A stretch of DNA of 20,041 nt from positions 1-20,041 of the IMG/VR virus record IMGVR_UViG_3300043419_000229. One strand, given 5' to 3'. Below are positions 139 through 6,466 of the stretch, in pieces. Below the pieces are notes generated by a model. That model saw only the letters and a list, made by a program, of their open reading frames with translations, made no database searches and had not been told where the DNA came from. How positions within the stretch are numbered: the first letter of the stretch is position 1; each line of letters begins with the position of its first letter. A program made the position numbers and the translations under genes. The DNA is from a virus.

Positions 139-2934
139 ATGAAAGATTACAAACAACTAATCAAAGAACTACCTTCTAAATCGGTAGTAATGGCTTTTGG
201 ACGATTCAACCCTCCGACTATCGGACATGAATTGTTGGTTAAAGCAGTCAAAAAACTGGCTCAGCAAAAGAAAGCTGACCACGTAATCTATGCATCTCGT
301 TCGCAGGATGCCAAAAAGAATCCACTATCAGTTGATAAAAAGGTTAAGTATTTAAACCTTATGTTTAAGAGCACCAATTTTGTTGGTGCTAGCGACAATG
401 TGCGCACTTTTATCGAAGCAGCCAAAGAATTGAATAAAAAGTATAAGAATCTTATTATGGTTGCTGGTAGCGATCGTGTCCCAGAATTCAATCGTTTGTT
501 AAACACATACAACGGCAAAGAATTTAACTTTGACACAATCGAAGTTATCTCTGCTGGAGAACGTGACCCAGATGCCGATGATGCATCTGGTATGTCAGCA
601 TCTAAGATGCGTGCTCTTGCAGTTAAGGGTGATTACACTCAGTTCAAAAAAGGACTTCCATCCTCTGTTCGTGAGATTGATGGTCGTCGTTTGATGAATG
701 ATATTCGTGAAGGTATGGGTTTAGACCATATCAAAGAACAAATTGTTCTAGTTAAAAACGAACTACGAGAAAAATATTTCCGTGGTGATATTTTTAACGA
801 GGGAGATATTGTAGAATCAAATGGTGAAAAGTACACCATTATCAAACGTGGTTCTAATCATTTACTACTAAAAGAAGAAAGTGGATCGTTGATCTCCAAA
901 TGGATTTACGATGTTCAACCTACGGAAGAAAGAGATATGAACGAAGAACTAACAGATAAGACTCTAAAAGTTAACGACAAAGTAAAAGTGGCAAGAATGA
1001 TTGCTACTATGCTAGGTGTTGACAATGCAGAATCTTCATCTAATCCAGAGAATCTTGTTAACTCAGCATTACGTAAAGTGCGCACCAAAGCACTGAACGC
1101 AGAAGCTCTTGCAATCTTAGACAAGATGTTAGTGATGGCTACTGAAGTTGGTATTGATTATGACGCTACTCTAAAACCTTCTAAGTTAAAAGAAGAAACA
1201 ATTCATGTAGGTTATCGCAATTCAAGGGGTGATTGGATCAAGACTACCACACACGATAACTATCCTGATGCCAAAGCCGCAATGGAAAGATTAGTCAAAG
1301 CAGGTAAGAAGGGTGTTCAGCATCGTTACGATAATAACGGAAGCATTGACCCTGGGATGAGAAAACTAGCTAATGAAGCTACAGTTAATAAGAACAGCAA
1401 GTATAATATTGCTAAAGATGTTCTACGTTTTAATGACTTTAAGAAGCTGAAAAAGATTCAAGAGCACGAAGAATCTGAAAGTGACAACAAGAAAGACAAT
1501 GAATCTGATCACGACCATGAACACAACCATAAAGGTGTAGATAAATCTGAAGTTGGTCACACACTAGTTGGTCCAGGTAAACAAGATAACTTACGTCGTC
1601 GTAAAGTTAAATATCATCTTGGCGAGCAAAGCAAGCCGCAACATATGGATATGACTTCTTATGGTGATGAAGCTGGTCATGAGAATACTGCTCAACATAT
1701 CGCTACTAGCGGTGAGCACACAAAGAAACAAAAGAAACTTGCACAAGGTTTCCTTAGCAAGATGCAAGGTTCTGTGAGCGAAGCCATGTCTGCCAGATTA
1801 AAATTGGCAGATGCACTACGTAAGCAAGAAGAAAAGCGTAAAGCATCCGAAGCACGTGCCAAGTTAATGATGCAGCAAGCAAAAGAAAAAGATGATCTTG
1901 TCGCTGCACATAAAAAAGAAAAAGAAAACTTAACAAAAGAAGAAGTTGATCTTGAAGAAGGGATGAAACAGACTCTACGCAAGGTTGTTCCTGGATATGC
2001 CAAGCGTGAAATAGATCAAAAGATGGACGCTGGCAAGTTTGGTAAGACTGACGTTGATAAAGATGCTAACTTCCAACGATATAAAAAGATTCAAGATAAA
2101 TTAAATAAAGAAGAAGTTGAACTAGAAGAATCAATGACAGCTTCTTGGCAAAAAGTACAGAGCATGGACAAAGGATCTATCACTGGAAGTAAAGAAGATG
2201 CCAAGAAGCGTCTGGCATACTTACATGCTGTTCATGCGCACCACAAGAAATTTGGTAACGATACCAAAAAGGTTAAAGATGAAATCGAGCGTATTAATCG
2301 TTCTCGTTTAACCGAAGAGCAAGAAGAGCCATGCGAAGTTTGCGGTATGTCTCCATGTCAGTGCGATCATTCAGACACTTCTCCAGCTGTAGACATGTCA
2401 GCTTATGAGCCAGATCTACCAGAGATGTCTGATGACGAAATCGAAAAGATGGCTGACGAGTTGACTGATGACGATTACTTAGAAACATATGACGATGATG
2501 AACTGGCTATCATCGACGACGAAACTGGCGAAGAAATCGAACCAGAAAACGAAGAAGAAAAACTTAAAGAAGATGCTATCATGGAAGTTCTTTCACGTGT
2601 AGAAAGAATTAAAGCAGCTACAAGAATCCGTCGCACTCAAGCCAAGCGTGAACGTGCAGCTAAGATTGCCATCAAGCGTTACTCAAACACTGCTACAATT
2701 AACAAGCGTTCACGTAGACTAGCTATCAAGTTAATGAAGAAGCGTTTGTTGCGTGGTAGAGATCCAGCGAAACTATCTGTTGGAGAAAAAGAACGTATTG
2801 AGCGCACCATCGAGCAACGCAAGGCAGTCATCGGTAGAATCGCTATGCGTTTAACATCACGTGTTCGTAAGATGGAAAAGGCTAGATTGTCTCATTCAAA
2901 ATATACACAAGGGAGTCAAAATGTTGCATTTTAA
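139..2934 (+). CDS. Large modular virion protein with N-terminal nucleotidyltransferase domain and head-targeting-like N-terminus
   Basis: 931 aa. Residues about 15-185 form a nucleotidylyltransferase (cytidylyl/NMN-adenylyl) fold: FGRFNPP with T27-I-G-H30 (the [HT]xGH motif) and SASKMR at 153-158 in the place of the ISTxxR motif. Residues about 220-262 look like a small KOW/SH3-like barrel (EGDIVESNGEKYTI). A conserved helical module lies around 267-348, a His-rich patch at 457-464 (DHDHEHNH), and a CxxC...CxC cluster at C732, C735, C740, C742. A very acidic stretch (about 745-810) is followed by a strongly basic helical C-terminus (about 815-931). Acidic linkers occur at 598-608 (KEEVDLEEG) and 655-665 (KEEVELEES). 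The N-terminus MKDYKQLIKE resembles the T4 internal-protein targeting peptide. The ATG directly follows an in-frame TAA, so no longer start exists. Established: such fused nucleotidyltransferase proteins occur in T4-like aquatic phages. Inferred: a prohead core or packaged protein. The activity is unproven. Confidence 0.75.
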   Translation: MKDYKQLIKELPSKSVVMAFGRFNPPTIGHELLVKAVKKLAQQKKADHVIYASRSQDAKKNPLSVDKKVKYLNLMFKSTNFVGASDNVRTFIEAAKELNKKYKNLIMVAGSDRVPEFNRLLNTYNGKEFNFDTIEVISAGERDPDADDASGMSASKMRALAVKGDYTQFKKGLPSSVREIDGRRLMNDIREGMGLDHIKEQIVLVKNELREKYFRGDIFNEGDIVESNGEKYTIIKRGSNHLLLKEESGSLISKWIYDVQPTEERDMNEELTDKTLKVNDKVKVARMIATMLGVDNAESSSNPENLVNSALRKVRTKALNAEALAILDKMLVMATEVGIDYDATLKPSKLKEETIHVGYRNSRGDWIKTTTHDNYPDAKAAMERLVKAGKKGVQHRYDNNGSIDPGMRKLANEATVNKNSKYNIAKDVLRFNDFKKLKKIQEHEESESDNKKDNESDHDHEHNHKGVDKSEVGHTLVGPGKQDNLRRRKVKYHLGEQSKPQHMDMTSYGDEAGHENTAQHIATSGEHTKKQKKLAQGFLSKMQGSVSEAMSARLKLADALRKQEEKRKASEARAKLMMQQAKEKDDLVAAHKKEKENLTKEEVDLEEGMKQTLRKVVPGYAKREIDQKMDAGKFGKTDVDKDANFQRYKKIQDKLNKEEVELEESMTASWQKVQSMDKGSITGSKEDAKKRLAYLHAVHAHHKKFGNDTKKVKDEIERINRSRLTEEQEEPCEVCGMSPCQCDHSDTSPAVDMSAYEPDLPEMSDDEIEKMADELTDDDYLETYDDDELAIIDDETGEEIEPENEEEKLKEDAIMEVLSRVERIKAATRIRRTQAKRERAAKIAIKRYSNTATINKRSRRLAIKLMKKRLLRGRDPAKLSVGEKERIERTIEQRKAVIGRIAMRLTSRVRKMEKARLSHSKYTQGSQNVAF

Positions 2935-3190
2935 AGAGTGGTTAAACGAAGCAACATATCAAGGACGTGATGTTCCTCTTAACAAACCAATGGCTGGTGA
3001 TGTTAAGAAGTCTAAAGTGTTCGTTGATTTAGATGGTGATGGTAAAGCAACCAAAGTAAACTTTGGTGACAAGAACATGACTATCAAAAAGAACATCCCT
3101 GCTCGTCGCAAGTCTTTCCGTGCTCGCCACAACTGCGATAATCCAGGACCAAAAGACAAAGCAAGATACTGGTCTTGCAAGGCATGGTGA
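2921..3190 (+). CDS. 89-aa conserved phage protein with capsid-targeting-like N-terminus and EF-hand-like loop
   Basis: The start is the ATG at 2921, preceded by a good Shine-Dalgarno AAGGGAG (2909-2915). A longer in-frame start at 2861 lies deep inside the upstream gene without such a site. The gene overlaps the 931-aa gene by 14 bases. The N-terminus MLHFKEWLNE-A aligns residue for residue with the T4 targeting peptide MKTYQEFIAE-A. Residues 36-41 (DLDGDG) form a calcium-loop-like motif. The C-terminal third is basic and Cys/aromatic rich (ARRKSFRARHNCDNPG, ending ARYWSCKAW; C72 and C86) and resembles a short C-terminal motif I recall from other T4-like phages without an assigned function. 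Inferred: a small head-packaged or structural protein. I cannot assign a biochemical role. Confidence 0.7.
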   Translation: MLHFKEWLNEATYQGRDVPLNKPMAGDVKKSKVFVDLDGDGKATKVNFGDKNMTIKKNIPARRKSFRARHNCDNPGPKDKARYWSCKAW

Positions 3191-3195
3191 AATAA

Positions 3196-3684
3196 ATGGC
3201 ACAAAAGCATATAATCAAACACACTGAAACAGAAATTGTTATCAAGTGTTATGTCACTGCTGCAAATGGTGGTGATATTGATATCAGTGTTCAAAATAAC
3301 TGCACAAAAACTGCTACACAAGAGTATGTAGCACCAACAACAATTCCAGATGAAACTGGTGGTGGTTTAGTTACTTATACTGGTTCAAGAGTTTACATAA
3401 CTGGATTGTGGTGGGGTCTAAAGAAAGACAAACAATTAGATGTGACCAGGATTCTTAATCCAACTGGTCCAGTTCTACACGGACACTATTATCTGATTAA
3501 CTCTGGTTTTTACGATTTTCACCAAACTGGTATCGCAGACAGAGTTTATGCTAATAAAGACCTTCGTTTTACATTCGATGGTCCAGGACATTGCATCATT
3601 CGACTGCGTAAGGAAGGTTGGCTTCCAAAGGTTGAGACTGCTGCATTTGGACCTTATGATGATGAAACTGTGGTAGGAAGTTAA
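3196..3684 (+). CDS. 162-aa uncharacterised, probably beta-rich virion protein
   Basis: The gene follows the 89-aa gene after 5 bases and precedes the Dps-like gene by 1 base, so it is almost certainly co-transcribed in the virion block. The sequence alternates polar and hydrophobic residues with many G, T, N and aromatic positions (YITGLWWGLKKDKQLDVTR; HGHYYLINSGFYDFH; FTFDGPGHCIIRLRKEGW). This suggests a compact beta-sandwich without signal peptide or membrane segment. No enzyme motif is visible. Position among head-associated genes suggests a capsid decoration or head-completion protein, but this is inference from context. The ribosome-binding site (GGTGAAATAA) is weak, consistent with translational coupling to the preceding gene. 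Confidence 0.6.
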   Translation: MAQKHIIKHTETEIVIKCYVTAANGGDIDISVQNNCTKTATQEYVAPTTIPDETGGGLVTYTGSRVYITGLWWGLKKDKQLDVTRILNPTGPVLHGHYYLINSGFYDFHQTGIADRVYANKDLRFTFDGPGHCIIRLRKEGWLPKVETAAFGPYDDETVVGS

Positions 3685-3685
3685 T

Positions 3686-4126
3686 ATGGAACATGTAGCC
3701 GCACTTAAAGTAGTCCTTGGAAATACATTTGTTATGTATTTCAAGGCACACTCATATCATTGGAATGTAGAAGGTTCAGACTTTGCGCAGTTCCATACAT
3801 TCTTTGGTGAACTGTATGAAGAACTACATGGCGCAATTGATCCAACAGCAGAGCAGATTCGTGCTGCACAAGATTATGCACCATTCAGTATGGGTGATTT
3901 GTACAGAATGAAAACCATAGAAGAAGACGCAGCACGTCCAGATACTGTTGCTGCTATGATAGGCAATCTGTTGTCCGCTAACAACGAAGTCCTGGAATCC
4001 CTAAATAAATTATTCAAGGCAGCAGATGTTGCAGATGAGCAGGGCTTGGCTGACTTTGCGGCAGGTAGAATAGATATTCACAAAAAACACGGATGGATGT
4101 TAAGATCCTTCATGAAGGGCGAATAA
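3686..4126 (+). CDS. Dps-like ferritin (DNA-protection / iron-storage family)
   Basis: 146 aa, the size of a minimal Dps subunit. The Dps signature is clear: AHSYHWNVEGSDFAQFH followed by AIDPTAEQIRA, and a C-terminal helix KKHGWMLRSFM matching the KHIWMFKAF-type end of Listeria Dps. Aligned without gaps to Listeria innocua Dps (from memory), the inter-subunit ferroxidase ligands are H25 (H31), H37 (H43), D52 (D58) and E56 (E62). The D47 position is G41, with E42 beside it, so one iron ligand is missing or shifted. Dps dodecamers bind iron, detoxify peroxide and often bind DNA. The short N-terminus lacks a Lys-rich tail, so direct DNA binding is doubtful. It sits between structural genes, with a 1-base gap upstream and an ATG directly abutting its stop downstream. 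Whether it protects phage DNA, manages host iron or is a virion component cannot be told from sequence. Confidence 0.85.
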   Translation: MEHVAALKVVLGNTFVMYFKAHSYHWNVEGSDFAQFHTFFGELYEELHGAIDPTAEQIRAAQDYAPFSMGDLYRMKTIEEDAARPDTVAAMIGNLLSANNEVLESLNKLFKAADVADEQGLADFAAGRIDIHKKHGWMLRSFMKGE

Positions 4127-6466
4127 ATGAAAACTTATAAAGAAATTGCAGAAGCATTAAAAGGTAAACAGCATAAGATCGACAAGAACAAGAATGGTAA
4201 GATCGATGCACATGACTTCAAACTTCTTCGTAAAGAAGAAGTAGAAGAACTTGATGAAGGTGTTGACCCATCTGAGGTTGCTGGTAACCCAAAGATGTAT
4301 GATGCTGCTACTGTAAAGAAAGCATACTACCATAAGAGTGCAACTCCAGAAGATAAGAAAACTCTTGAGCGACATTTAGATCGTCATCATGGTATGAATA
4401 ACTGGCGTAAACCAGTGAAAGAAGAAACAATCGCTGAAGCAACAGTTAAGACTCAGAAGTATTCTTGGGGTACTATGAAGACAGTTCACCATGGTGCTGA
4501 CTTCTCTATTCCACTACACCCAGAACATCATCAAGCGATTGCTAAGTTAAAAGATGAGCAAGAGCATAAGTTTAAAGATGAAACTGGTCGTCACTGGACT
4601 GCTCGTCGTAAAGGTGAAGATGTACACTTCCACTCAGCCAATGATGGTCCAAAGACTACAGTTAAGCACTCAGCATTAAAAGAAGCAGTTGAAGACGAAG
4701 AACGTATGGCTCGTTCTGACTACAAAGTTTCTCCTTCTGGTCGCAAGTCTCACAAAGAGATCGTATTTAAACACGGCGAAGAAGACAAAAAATCATCTAT
4801 CCAAGAAGTTTCTCCTCCAGGATTCGAAGGTACAGTTAAGGCAATGAAGAAGCACAAAGAGATCGATAATCCTTATGCTCTTGCTTGGTACATGAAGAAC
4901 AAAGGTATGAAGTCTCACAAGAAAGCAGACGGTACCATGAAAGAAGACCATGTCGAAGAAGGCGTGACTGGCGCAGTTGCTGGTGGTATCGCTGGTGGTT
5001 TAGCTGGCGGTCCACTTGGTGCTCTTGCTGGTGCTTATCTTGGTCACAAGATTCAACAAGGTGCTAACAGTGCCAAGAAACTAGCCAAGGAAAAAGAAAA
5101 ACTTCGTAGAGAAGAAGTCGAACAAATCGATGAGAAGTCTGAGCAAGCCAAACGTAATAAGACCATGAAGAATATGATGGATGCTTCTCGTGGCGCTCGC
5201 TACAAAGCGTCTGGTAATCCAGTACCTGATGCTGAACCACAGCACAAAACACCTCAAGCGTACAACAAAGCAATTGGTCGTGCCCTACGCAACGAAGAAC
5301 TAGATGAAGCCGAAAAGGCAACAGGTGGTTTAAAAGATGCTTGCTGGAAAGGTTACACTGCAGTTGGTATGAAGATGAAGAACGGTAAGAAAGTTCCTAA
5401 CTGTGTTCCAGTTAATGAACACGCTGAGATGTCTACCGCACGTGAATACCAATATATCAGCGAGGGAATGAGAACTACTCATGAAGATCCACTAGTGACT
5501 GTTCATGATAAAGATGGTTTACATACTCACGCAAATCTTTCTACTGCCAATGGAATCTTTGGAACAAAGGTTAAACATACTGCTGTTCATGCTGGTCCAG
5601 TTAAAGTTAAAGATGGTCATGAAACAAAACGTGACTTAACATTTGCTATCTCTCAACACCACGCACAAGCTGTTAAGGATGAAGAGAAGTTTAGAAAACA
5701 ATTCGGCGAAGAAACTAAACAAGAAGATCCACCATTCGATGGTCCATACACTAAGGTTAAGGCTGATGCCAAAGACAAGTCTGGTGCTACACATACACCA
5801 ATGTCAAGAGCAAAGCACTTAGCACGTATGGCTATGAAGAAACAAATGAAAGAAGACATCGATCGTTTGTTTGAAAAGGATGACTCTGAGTACAACTACG
5901 AAGGTGAGATGGCTGTTACTCAACTAAAGACTATCATGCGTCACGCTGAGGCACTGCAAGCAAAAATGCAACCTGACACTAACTTGCCTGAGTGGGTTCA
6001 GTCTAAGATTACTCTTGCTGCTGACTACATTCAAACAGCATCGGATTATCTACACTCTGAAATAGAAGAACAAGCACCAGTTGCTCCAGTCCCAGGACAG
6101 AAGTGGAATTCACATGCTGTTATGGTTAATGGTAAACAACGTGTAGTTATTCCTCGCAAGAGTGTGAAGAACTACCCAGAGCATGAAGGTTGGAAAGAAG
6201 TGTCACCAGGACAAAAATTAAAAGAAGACGATGAAGTACAGTTTTCTTATAAAGAGTTTGCTATGATGCTTGAGTATGAAACAAAAGATGGTGTGTACAG
6301 ACACAAAGGTACTTACGGTGGCAACTATGTTGATCCAGAAGGTGCTGATGATGCCGACGATAAAAAATCAAAACAACAACCAGCTGAGAAGCGTGGTCGT
6401 GGACGCCCAGCTGGGGCTAAATCAGGTGCTCGTAAAATCACTGGCACTTCAAAGCTATACAAATAA
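4127..6466 (+). CDS. 779-aa modular head-associated protein with T4 internal-protein-like targeting peptide and repeated protease-like linkers
   Basis: Starts MKTYKEIAE-A, nearly identical to the T4 internal-protein capsid-targeting peptide MKTYQEFIAE-A. Residues 19-30 (DKNKNGKIDAHD) form a canonical EF-hand loop. Basic modules are then separated by acidic linkers ending in (I/L)-x-E: L42-D-E44/G, I102-A-E104/A, I225-Q-E227/V, I334-D-E336/K, L392-D-E394/A, I444-S-E446/G, I646-E-E648/Q. Modules include a glycine zipper with GxxxG spacing (about 279-307), a two-Cys motif (ACWKGYTAVGMK...VPNC, 405-426), a helical module (NLPEWVQSKITLAADYI, 619-635) that I recall from other T4-like phage proteins, and an AT-hook core RGRP at 758-761 near the C-terminus. 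No catalytic domain is recognised. The stop of the Dps-like gene abuts this ATG. Inferred: packaged internal or core polyprotein cut by the prohead protease. An intact elongated structural protein is the alternative. Confidence 0.7.
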   Translation: MKTYKEIAEALKGKQHKIDKNKNGKIDAHDFKLLRKEEVEELDEGVDPSEVAGNPKMYDAATVKKAYYHKSATPEDKKTLERHLDRHHGMNNWRKPVKEETIAEATVKTQKYSWGTMKTVHHGADFSIPLHPEHHQAIAKLKDEQEHKFKDETGRHWTARRKGEDVHFHSANDGPKTTVKHSALKEAVEDEERMARSDYKVSPSGRKSHKEIVFKHGEEDKKSSIQEVSPPGFEGTVKAMKKHKEIDNPYALAWYMKNKGMKSHKKADGTMKEDHVEEGVTGAVAGGIAGGLAGGPLGALAGAYLGHKIQQGANSAKKLAKEKEKLRREEVEQIDEKSEQAKRNKTMKNMMDASRGARYKASGNPVPDAEPQHKTPQAYNKAIGRALRNEELDEAEKATGGLKDACWKGYTAVGMKMKNGKKVPNCVPVNEHAEMSTAREYQYISEGMRTTHEDPLVTVHDKDGLHTHANLSTANGIFGTKVKHTAVHAGPVKVKDGHETKRDLTFAISQHHAQAVKDEEKFRKQFGEETKQEDPPFDGPYTKVKADAKDKSGATHTPMSRAKHLARMAMKKQMKEDIDRLFEKDDSEYNYEGEMAVTQLKTIMRHAEALQAKMQPDTNLPEWVQSKITLAADYIQTASDYLHSEIEEQAPVAPVPGQKWNSHAVMVNGKQRVVIPRKSVKNYPEHEGWKEVSPGQKLKEDDEVQFSYKEFAMMLEYETKDGVYRHKGTYGGNYVDPEGADDADDKKSKQQPAEKRGRGRPAGAKSGARKITGTSKLYK

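Follow-up and report, generated by a model that had tools for sequence, protein, structure and literature searches.

The internal proteins IPI, IPII and IPIII of phage T4 carry a 10-residue N-terminal tag with aromatic residues at positions 4 and 7, a hydrophobic residue at position 8, glutamate at position 10 and alanine after the cut, and unrelated cargo follows this conserved tag. Mutational work on IPIII assigned targeting to residues 4 and 7 and processing to residues 8 and 10, and the T4 gp21 protease cleaves after L/I-x-E (PMC9026906). In the DNA analysed here, a 20,041-base virus fragment (IMG/VR record IMGVR_UViG_3300043419_000229, positions 1 to 20,041; called the window below), a sequence-only reading had pointed to three neighboring genes whose products, of 931, 89 and 779 residues, start with peptides of this kind. 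The tag and the unrelated cargo behind it resemble the T4 system, as does the gp21-type protease, which is found here in relatives. However, the T4 internal proteins are single and small, whereas the tag in the window also heads the modular 779- and 931-residue proteins, which contain further candidate protease sites. This polyprotein organization, as judged from the sequence, is likely to be what is new relative to the T4 internal-protein system.

Other described systems share some of these features. Like T4 Alt, a packaged ADP-ribosyltransferase with propeptides cut by gp21, one of the window proteins is an enzyme predicted to reside in the head, but it has another fold, and Alt lacks a string of exchangeable modules. 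The T4 proteins gp22, gp67 and gp68 have many I/L-x-E sites and are cut into several fragments, as is predicted here; their fragments mostly leave the head, whereas the predicted pieces here are conserved modules, some of them encoded singly. The polyvalent proteins of phages and conjugative elements are likewise shuffled multidomain proteins proposed to enter with the DNA, but an embedded peptidase releases their domains, in contrast to the T4-type tag, separate head protease and very small modules considered here (Iyer et al. 2017, a paper from which the word cyanophage is absent). In the giant phages phiKZ and SPN3US, numerous packaged head and ejection proteins are processed by a gp21-type protease, which cleaves after x-x-E at several sites in a propeptide; what is lost there is mainly N-terminal propeptides, whereas the candidate sites here lie between reusable modules. 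No description of a cyanophage capsid-targeting sequence or of a phage prohead-protease polyprotein was found in the open-licence literature, which is not proof that none exists.

The three N-termini of the sequence-only reading were recovered from the open reading frames, all on the forward (+) strand. The 931-residue frame (139-2934) starts MKDYKQLIKE/LPSK, the 89-residue frame (2921-3190) MLHFKEWLNE/ATYQ, and the 779-residue frame (4127-6466) MKTYKEIAE/ALKG, the slash marking the predicted cut. The putative targeting peptides thus occupy positions 139-168 (cut after E10), 2921-2950 (cut after E10) and 4127-4153 (cut after E9, which is invariant in an 18-sequence alignment). Shine-Dalgarno-like sequences stand upstream of the ATGs of the 89- and 779-residue frames, AGGGAG before position 2921, where the program that listed the frames favors an upstream GTG, and AAGGG 5' of the 779-residue start. 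The 931- and 89-residue genes overlap by 14 bases (2921-2934), which suggests translational coupling. The T4-type pattern (aromatic residues at 4 and 7, a hydrophobic residue at 8, glutamate near 10) is clear in the 89-residue protein, and holds for the 779-residue protein with deviations, since its tag is one residue shorter and position 7 is not aromatic. It fits the 931-residue protein poorly, with leucine both at position 7 and directly after the predicted cut (P1'), and of the three tags this one is the most doubtful.

Conservation of the tag was measured at the aligned positions of 59 relatives of the 89-residue protein. Where aligned, E10 is present in 58/58 and A11 in 59/59, position 4 is F or Y in 40/40, position 7 is mostly F, Y, W or H, and position 8 is I, L, F or V, while positions 2, 3, 6 and 9 vary. 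The alignment of homologue N-termini proposed as a check therefore came out as expected for a T4-type tag, with the targeting (4, 7) and processing (8, 10) residues kept and the rest variable. An N-terminal profile was also trained on 36 N-termini of these relatives, with no T4 sequence included, and scanned against all 1,553 ATG starts of T4 that have 40 or more codons. The two top ranks were ipII and ipIII, and gp61.1 was third, well clear of the fourth. The same scan did not recover ipI, as expected from its longer propeptide, in which the I-x-E lies at residue 19. Within the window, the starts of the other two proteins scored 28.4 and 15.0, and that of the 931-residue protein 0.8.

A strict DNA pattern (ATG-x-x-[FY]-x-x-[FY]-[hydrophobic]-x-Glu) gave 29 matches in 19 phage records, compared to 5 when Asp replaced Glu and 5 when the pattern was reversed; some of the 29 are false, for example one within an apparent ribonucleotide reductase small-subunit gene. 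In T4 there are three matches in all, namely ipII, ipIII and gp61.1. Tag-like sequences follow only 19 of 11,815 internal methionines. As a separate observation, T4 gp61.1 (54 residues, MKTFKEFIKE/DMVAGD; NC_000866, L166:18966-19130, minus strand) is a candidate for an unrecognised T4 internal protein; the name is absent from the papers listed by a literature search that included it.

The window contains no head genes, and the protease and scaffold were therefore assessed in relatives, which were collected on the basis of their resemblance to the window proteins. The gene order of the window (nucleotidyltransferase, small genes, structural genes, primase, ribonucleotide reductase) matches that of Pelagibacter phage HTVC008M and Methylophilales phage Melnitz, both Kyanoviridae, and the window phage is a T4-like (Kyanoviridae-like) aquatic phage. 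A gp21-type protease, sought as Peptidase_S77 (PF03420) in 18 records, was found in 12 of them, including all eleven of at least 140 kb: seven IMG/VR records (155-221 kb), HTVC008M, Melnitz, Flavobacterium phage immuto and T4. PF03420 is absent from three non-T4-like phages, Kolga, HTVC202P and CRP-901. Homologues of the 89-residue protein in these protease-less phages start M-A-K-Y-Q-G, M-A-K-Y-K-G and M-A-T-Y-K-G, respectively, and thus begin exactly at the predicted P1' residue. The protease of the relatives is probably also specific for I/L-x-E, because the strongest excess of this motif is found in the protein at the gp22 position in T4, in HTVC008M and in the relatives G003 and G002; these last three have a distinct gene at the scaffold position, next to that of the protease.

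Evidence from virions comes from cyanophage S-SM1. Sullivan et al. (2010) found the cytidyltransferase T4-GC190 among the proteins of purified S-SM1 particles (PMC3037559). The S-SM1 cytidyltransferase, SSM1_190, starts MKKFSAFLNE/AERSF and is the sole match to the strict pattern in that genome. This detection argues for packaging of the family that includes the N-terminal domain of the 931-residue protein, as distinct from removal of the tag. The proposal that the three window proteins are packaged into the head has gained support on every one of these lines, from the conserved T4 positions and the prediction of T4 internal proteins to the co-occurrence with the protease, the untagged starts where the protease is missing and the S-SM1 virion, and capsid targeting of the tagged window proteins is well supported. 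What that proposal missed is the modular build of the two large proteins and the I/L-x-E sites inside them.

Homologues of the 779-residue protein match it mainly piecewise rather than over its full length. Behind the tag, module 1 (residues 10-44, positions 4154-4258, ALKGKQHKIDKNKNG...EELDE) is the LKGxQHK module, which is preceded by E in 22/23 contexts. Module 2 (45-104, 4259-4438) ends in EETIAE and module 3 (105-186, 4439-4684) in HSALKE; they are predicted to form a helical bead (predicted local distance difference test, pLDDT, about 77-86 for residues 51-90) and a beta-rich bead (about 73-90 for 111-180), respectively. Module 4 (187-227, 4685-4807), which ends in SSIQE, is modeled with low confidence. 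Module 5 (228-277, 4808-4957, VSPPGFEGTVKAMKK...), the VSPPGF module, is internal after SSIQE here and elsewhere forms a tagged 56-residue single gene, MISFKQYITE/VSPPGFKGTVKAMK (MISFKQYITE/VSPPGFKG); a hydrophobic-x-E precedes it in 8/8 contexts. It occurs in 16 host proteins, 12 of which resemble neither the 779-residue protein nor the nucleotidyltransferase, and seven of which are short, with at most 130 residues. The glycine-rich module 6 (278-336, 4958-5134), ending in EEVEQIDE, has few relatives, in 2 hosts, and module 7 (337-394, 5135-5308), ending in NEELDE, is found in 30 host proteins. Module 8 (395-446, 5309-5464; KDACWKGY...VPNCVP, ending in YQYISE) has 57 hosts, 6 with module 1, 17 with the nucleotidyltransferase and 34 with neither. 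Module 9 (447-583, 5465-5875), ending in IDRLFE, has 35 host proteins, and module 10 (584-648, 5876-6070, EYNYEGEMAVTQL...HSEIEE) has 42 of mixed architecture; it also occurs in cyanophages. The C-terminal part, or module 11 (649-779, 6071-6463), is found in 33. The shuffling of modules, like the conservation of the tag and its co-occurrence with the protease, is demonstrated by these comparisons.

The 779-residue protein contains 12 I/L-x-E motifs where 5.2 are expected from its composition (p=0.003), and its similarity boundaries cluster at these motifs (p about 0.01 by circular shift). When junctions were pooled, E was found at 41% of them compared to about 17% at adjacent upstream positions, a signal that is diluted because the linker from the CWxGY module to the site varies. 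Residues 1-277 alone were folded with AlphaFold2, since MAFFT misaligned the homologue fragments against the full-length protein. In the model, confidence is higher over two beads, at about 45-95 and 105-185, and pLDDT falls below 50 at 29-44, at 97-104 and from residue 187 onward, which is where the cuts after 44, 104 and 186 are predicted. A fold search with this model gave no match at E<0.001. Searches of Pfam and PHROGs found no peptidase domain in either the 779- or the 931-residue protein. At the level of sequence, the 779-residue protein has candidate protease sites at module borders and modules that also occur singly, and it looks like a polyprotein more clearly than does the 931-residue protein.

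The 89-residue protein provides the sharpest view of a single junction. Its predicted mature product of 79 residues (ATYQGRDVPLNKP..., 2951-3187) is encoded behind a tag in the window, stands alone without a tag in non-T4-like phages (M-A-[TK]Y[QK]G) and is embedded in larger proteins elsewhere, for example in the C-terminal part of the Melnitz nucleotidyltransferase. Where embedded, it is preceded by E in 22/22 distinct contexts with differing upstream sequence, against about 10% expected (p=8e-23, a value that is too small because the phages are related and the contexts not independent, although the pattern is still clear), and by a hydrophobic-x-E in 19/22. A structure model, built from an alignment without three rows from annotated phage records, reached a mean pLDDT of 62.5, and this low confidence excluded it from fold searches; a PDB sequence search with the protein gave weak, seemingly irrelevant matches only.

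The 931-residue protein begins, after its putative tag, with a nucleotidyltransferase (cytidylyltransferase-like) domain (residues 11-265, positions 169-933), which is the predicted first released product. The fold had been proposed from the sequence, and the assignment holds up: the domain matches PF01467 (E=2.1e-6; 28.4 bits, above the curated cut-off of 21) and the cytidyltransferase family phrog_3041 (E=2.7e-69). PF01467 spans several activities. A PDB sequence search with the nucleotidyltransferase returned weak and seemingly irrelevant matches only. Several homologues of 160-215 residues are scarcely more than this domain plus a tag of their own, and of the 74 distinct N-terminal extensions seen among relatives of the 931-residue protein, 65 contain a hydrophobic-x-E. 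The modular C-terminal part (934-2931) has candidate I/L-x-E sites after residues 352, 442, 496, 607 (EEVDLEE/GM), 664 (EEVELEE/SM), 726, 762, 811 and 816. Similarity boundaries fall at I/L-x-E 89 times against about 32 expected (p=0.005 by circular shift, p=0.03 against random E), and the last module is present in 12 proteins without the nucleotidyltransferase. Several I/L-x-E motifs within the nucleotidyltransferase, as well as one in module 10 of the 779-residue protein, are probably not cleavage sites.

These results suggest the following scheme. The first 9-10 residues would serve as a capsid-targeting sequence of the T4 type and bring each product into the prohead core, where a gp21-type protease would remove the tag after hydrophobic-x-E. 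The same protease would then cut at I/L-x-E between the modules of the 779-residue and probably also the 931-residue protein, which is a likely step. In this way, a tagged polyprotein could give rise to small mature proteins of about 35-140 residues plus the nucleotidyltransferase domain. We infer that the mature pieces are retained alongside the DNA and accompany it into the next host cell, delivery being argued by analogy with T4. Modules are swapped between the predicted polyproteins and single tagged genes. As a whole, this explanation, with head-internal cargo, tag removal, internal gp21-type cutting and a co-injected set of modules, appears quite probable to us.

Several results weigh against this scheme. 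Boundaries in the 779-residue protein are no commoner at I/L-x-E than at other Glu residues (p=0.33), the two being inseparable because the linkers are Glu-rich, and the 15 I/L-x-E motifs of the 931-residue protein are no significant excess over the 11 expected. Two homologues of the latter have Q instead of E at the cut site. The module contexts that were counted come from related phages and are not fully independent, and in HTVC008M the 89-residue module sits behind a different N-terminus. HTVC008M also has no gene that scores as tagged despite its protease and scaffold, so the tag is not universal in this group of phages. Among the four IMG/VR records of 100-111 kb, the protease was found in one; the three without it are perhaps incomplete.

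Some of these points would be expected if the tag alone were removed and the large proteins stayed intact as multidomain proteins similar to polyvalent proteins, with the Glu-rich linkers as flexible spacers. Boundaries in the 779-residue protein that lie no nearer to I/L-x-E than to other Glu, and the lack of an excess in the 931-residue protein, fit this alternative, and other phages are known to have large multidomain proteins for which injection in intact form or self-cleavage has been proposed (PMC5512222). It does not readily explain why E precedes the embedded 89-residue module in every one of its contexts, why modules found inside it also occur as tagged single genes that would be cut at the same residue, or why the 779-residue protein has its excess of I/L-x-E, and we consider it unlikely. 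Cutting without delivery would be the case if the proteins were scaffold or core components that are fragmented and mostly expelled. The many I/L-x-E sites and acidic stretches are indeed gp22-like, and in T4 the core proteins are cleaved to several fragments, most of which leave the head (PMC9026906). However, G003, G002 and HTVC008M have their own scaffold-position gene beside the protease, the modules are conserved and include one enzyme as well as some with a predicted fold, a tagged cytidyltransferase is present in S-SM1 particles, and a superoxide dismutase is among the tagged relatives; we therefore regard a scaffold role as very improbable.

At the other extreme, the similar starts could reflect chance or a generic late-gene N-terminus with no role in head targeting. 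The tag is short and the 931-residue case is weak, as this would predict, but the excess of strict-pattern matches over the Asp and reversed controls, the rarity of tag-like sequences after internal methionines, the success of the profile with T4 ipII and ipIII and the missing tag in phages without the protease leave it hardly any probability. A chance origin of the tag is largely refuted by the profile ranking and the two sets of controls.

The two remaining genes in this region lie among the tagged ones and had been described as lacking such a start, which proved correct for their homologues too. The 162-residue gene (3196-3684), with no function assigned, is untagged in the window and in all 13 distinct homologues among those listed; the Dps/ferritin-like gene (3686-4126; PF00210, E=5e-19) is untagged in the window and in all 26 distinct homologues among those listed. 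Both were considered as tagged cargo and ruled out on these grounds. The Dps/ferritin-like gene, itself untagged in the homologues listed, is also found between tagged genes in many relatives.

Other proteins with tags or tag-like starts were seen in the relatives, and since these were chosen by similarity to the window, the numbers of tagged proteins in their loci are not a survey. A Fe/Mn superoxide dismutase (Pfam E=6e-23) with the tag-like start MKNFSHFIEE is encoded at L212:1501-2049 in a 155-kb T4-like record. A tagged HAD-type protein that has the motif IFDIDDTLF and is weakly similar to polynucleotide kinase is encoded in three records (L232:1501-2118, L226 and L213); in G003 it lies upstream of the homologue of the 931-residue protein. 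A DUF6267 protein (PF19782) with a KWDGAPA motif carries the tag MINFSNFITEE (L220:1501-2727); its family, phrog_455, also matches the nucleotidyltransferase of the 931-residue protein, and some phages may therefore carry a fusion of the two. A Melnitz Zeta-toxin/AAA-type kinase has the weaker tag-like start MKTFAELQEG (L164:15855-16520). Finally, a tagged protein at L224:1036-1530 (minus strand) ends in DUF6321, where an RRKSFxAR...W pattern resembles the C-terminus of the 89-residue protein.

In the cytoplasm, T4 IPI and IPIII counter the defences of the host (PMC9391042, PMC3012670). By analogy, the released pieces may be counter-defence or take-over factors. It seems somewhat more probable than otherwise that T4-like aquatic phages encode targeted cargo polyproteins, from which the protease would release a mixture to be injected, and that shuffling of the modules would change this cocktail quickly. 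The tag provides a sequence rule for head-internal proteins across the T4 superfamily, including uncultured aquatic phages in which most genes have no assigned role. If the internal cuts are real, they would amount to a polyprotein strategy based on the head protease of a double-stranded DNA phage, and would explain a large set of shuffled hypothetical proteins. Enzymes such as the nucleotidyltransferase, the superoxide dismutase and the polynucleotide-kinase-like phosphatase may also arrive ready-made at the start of infection.

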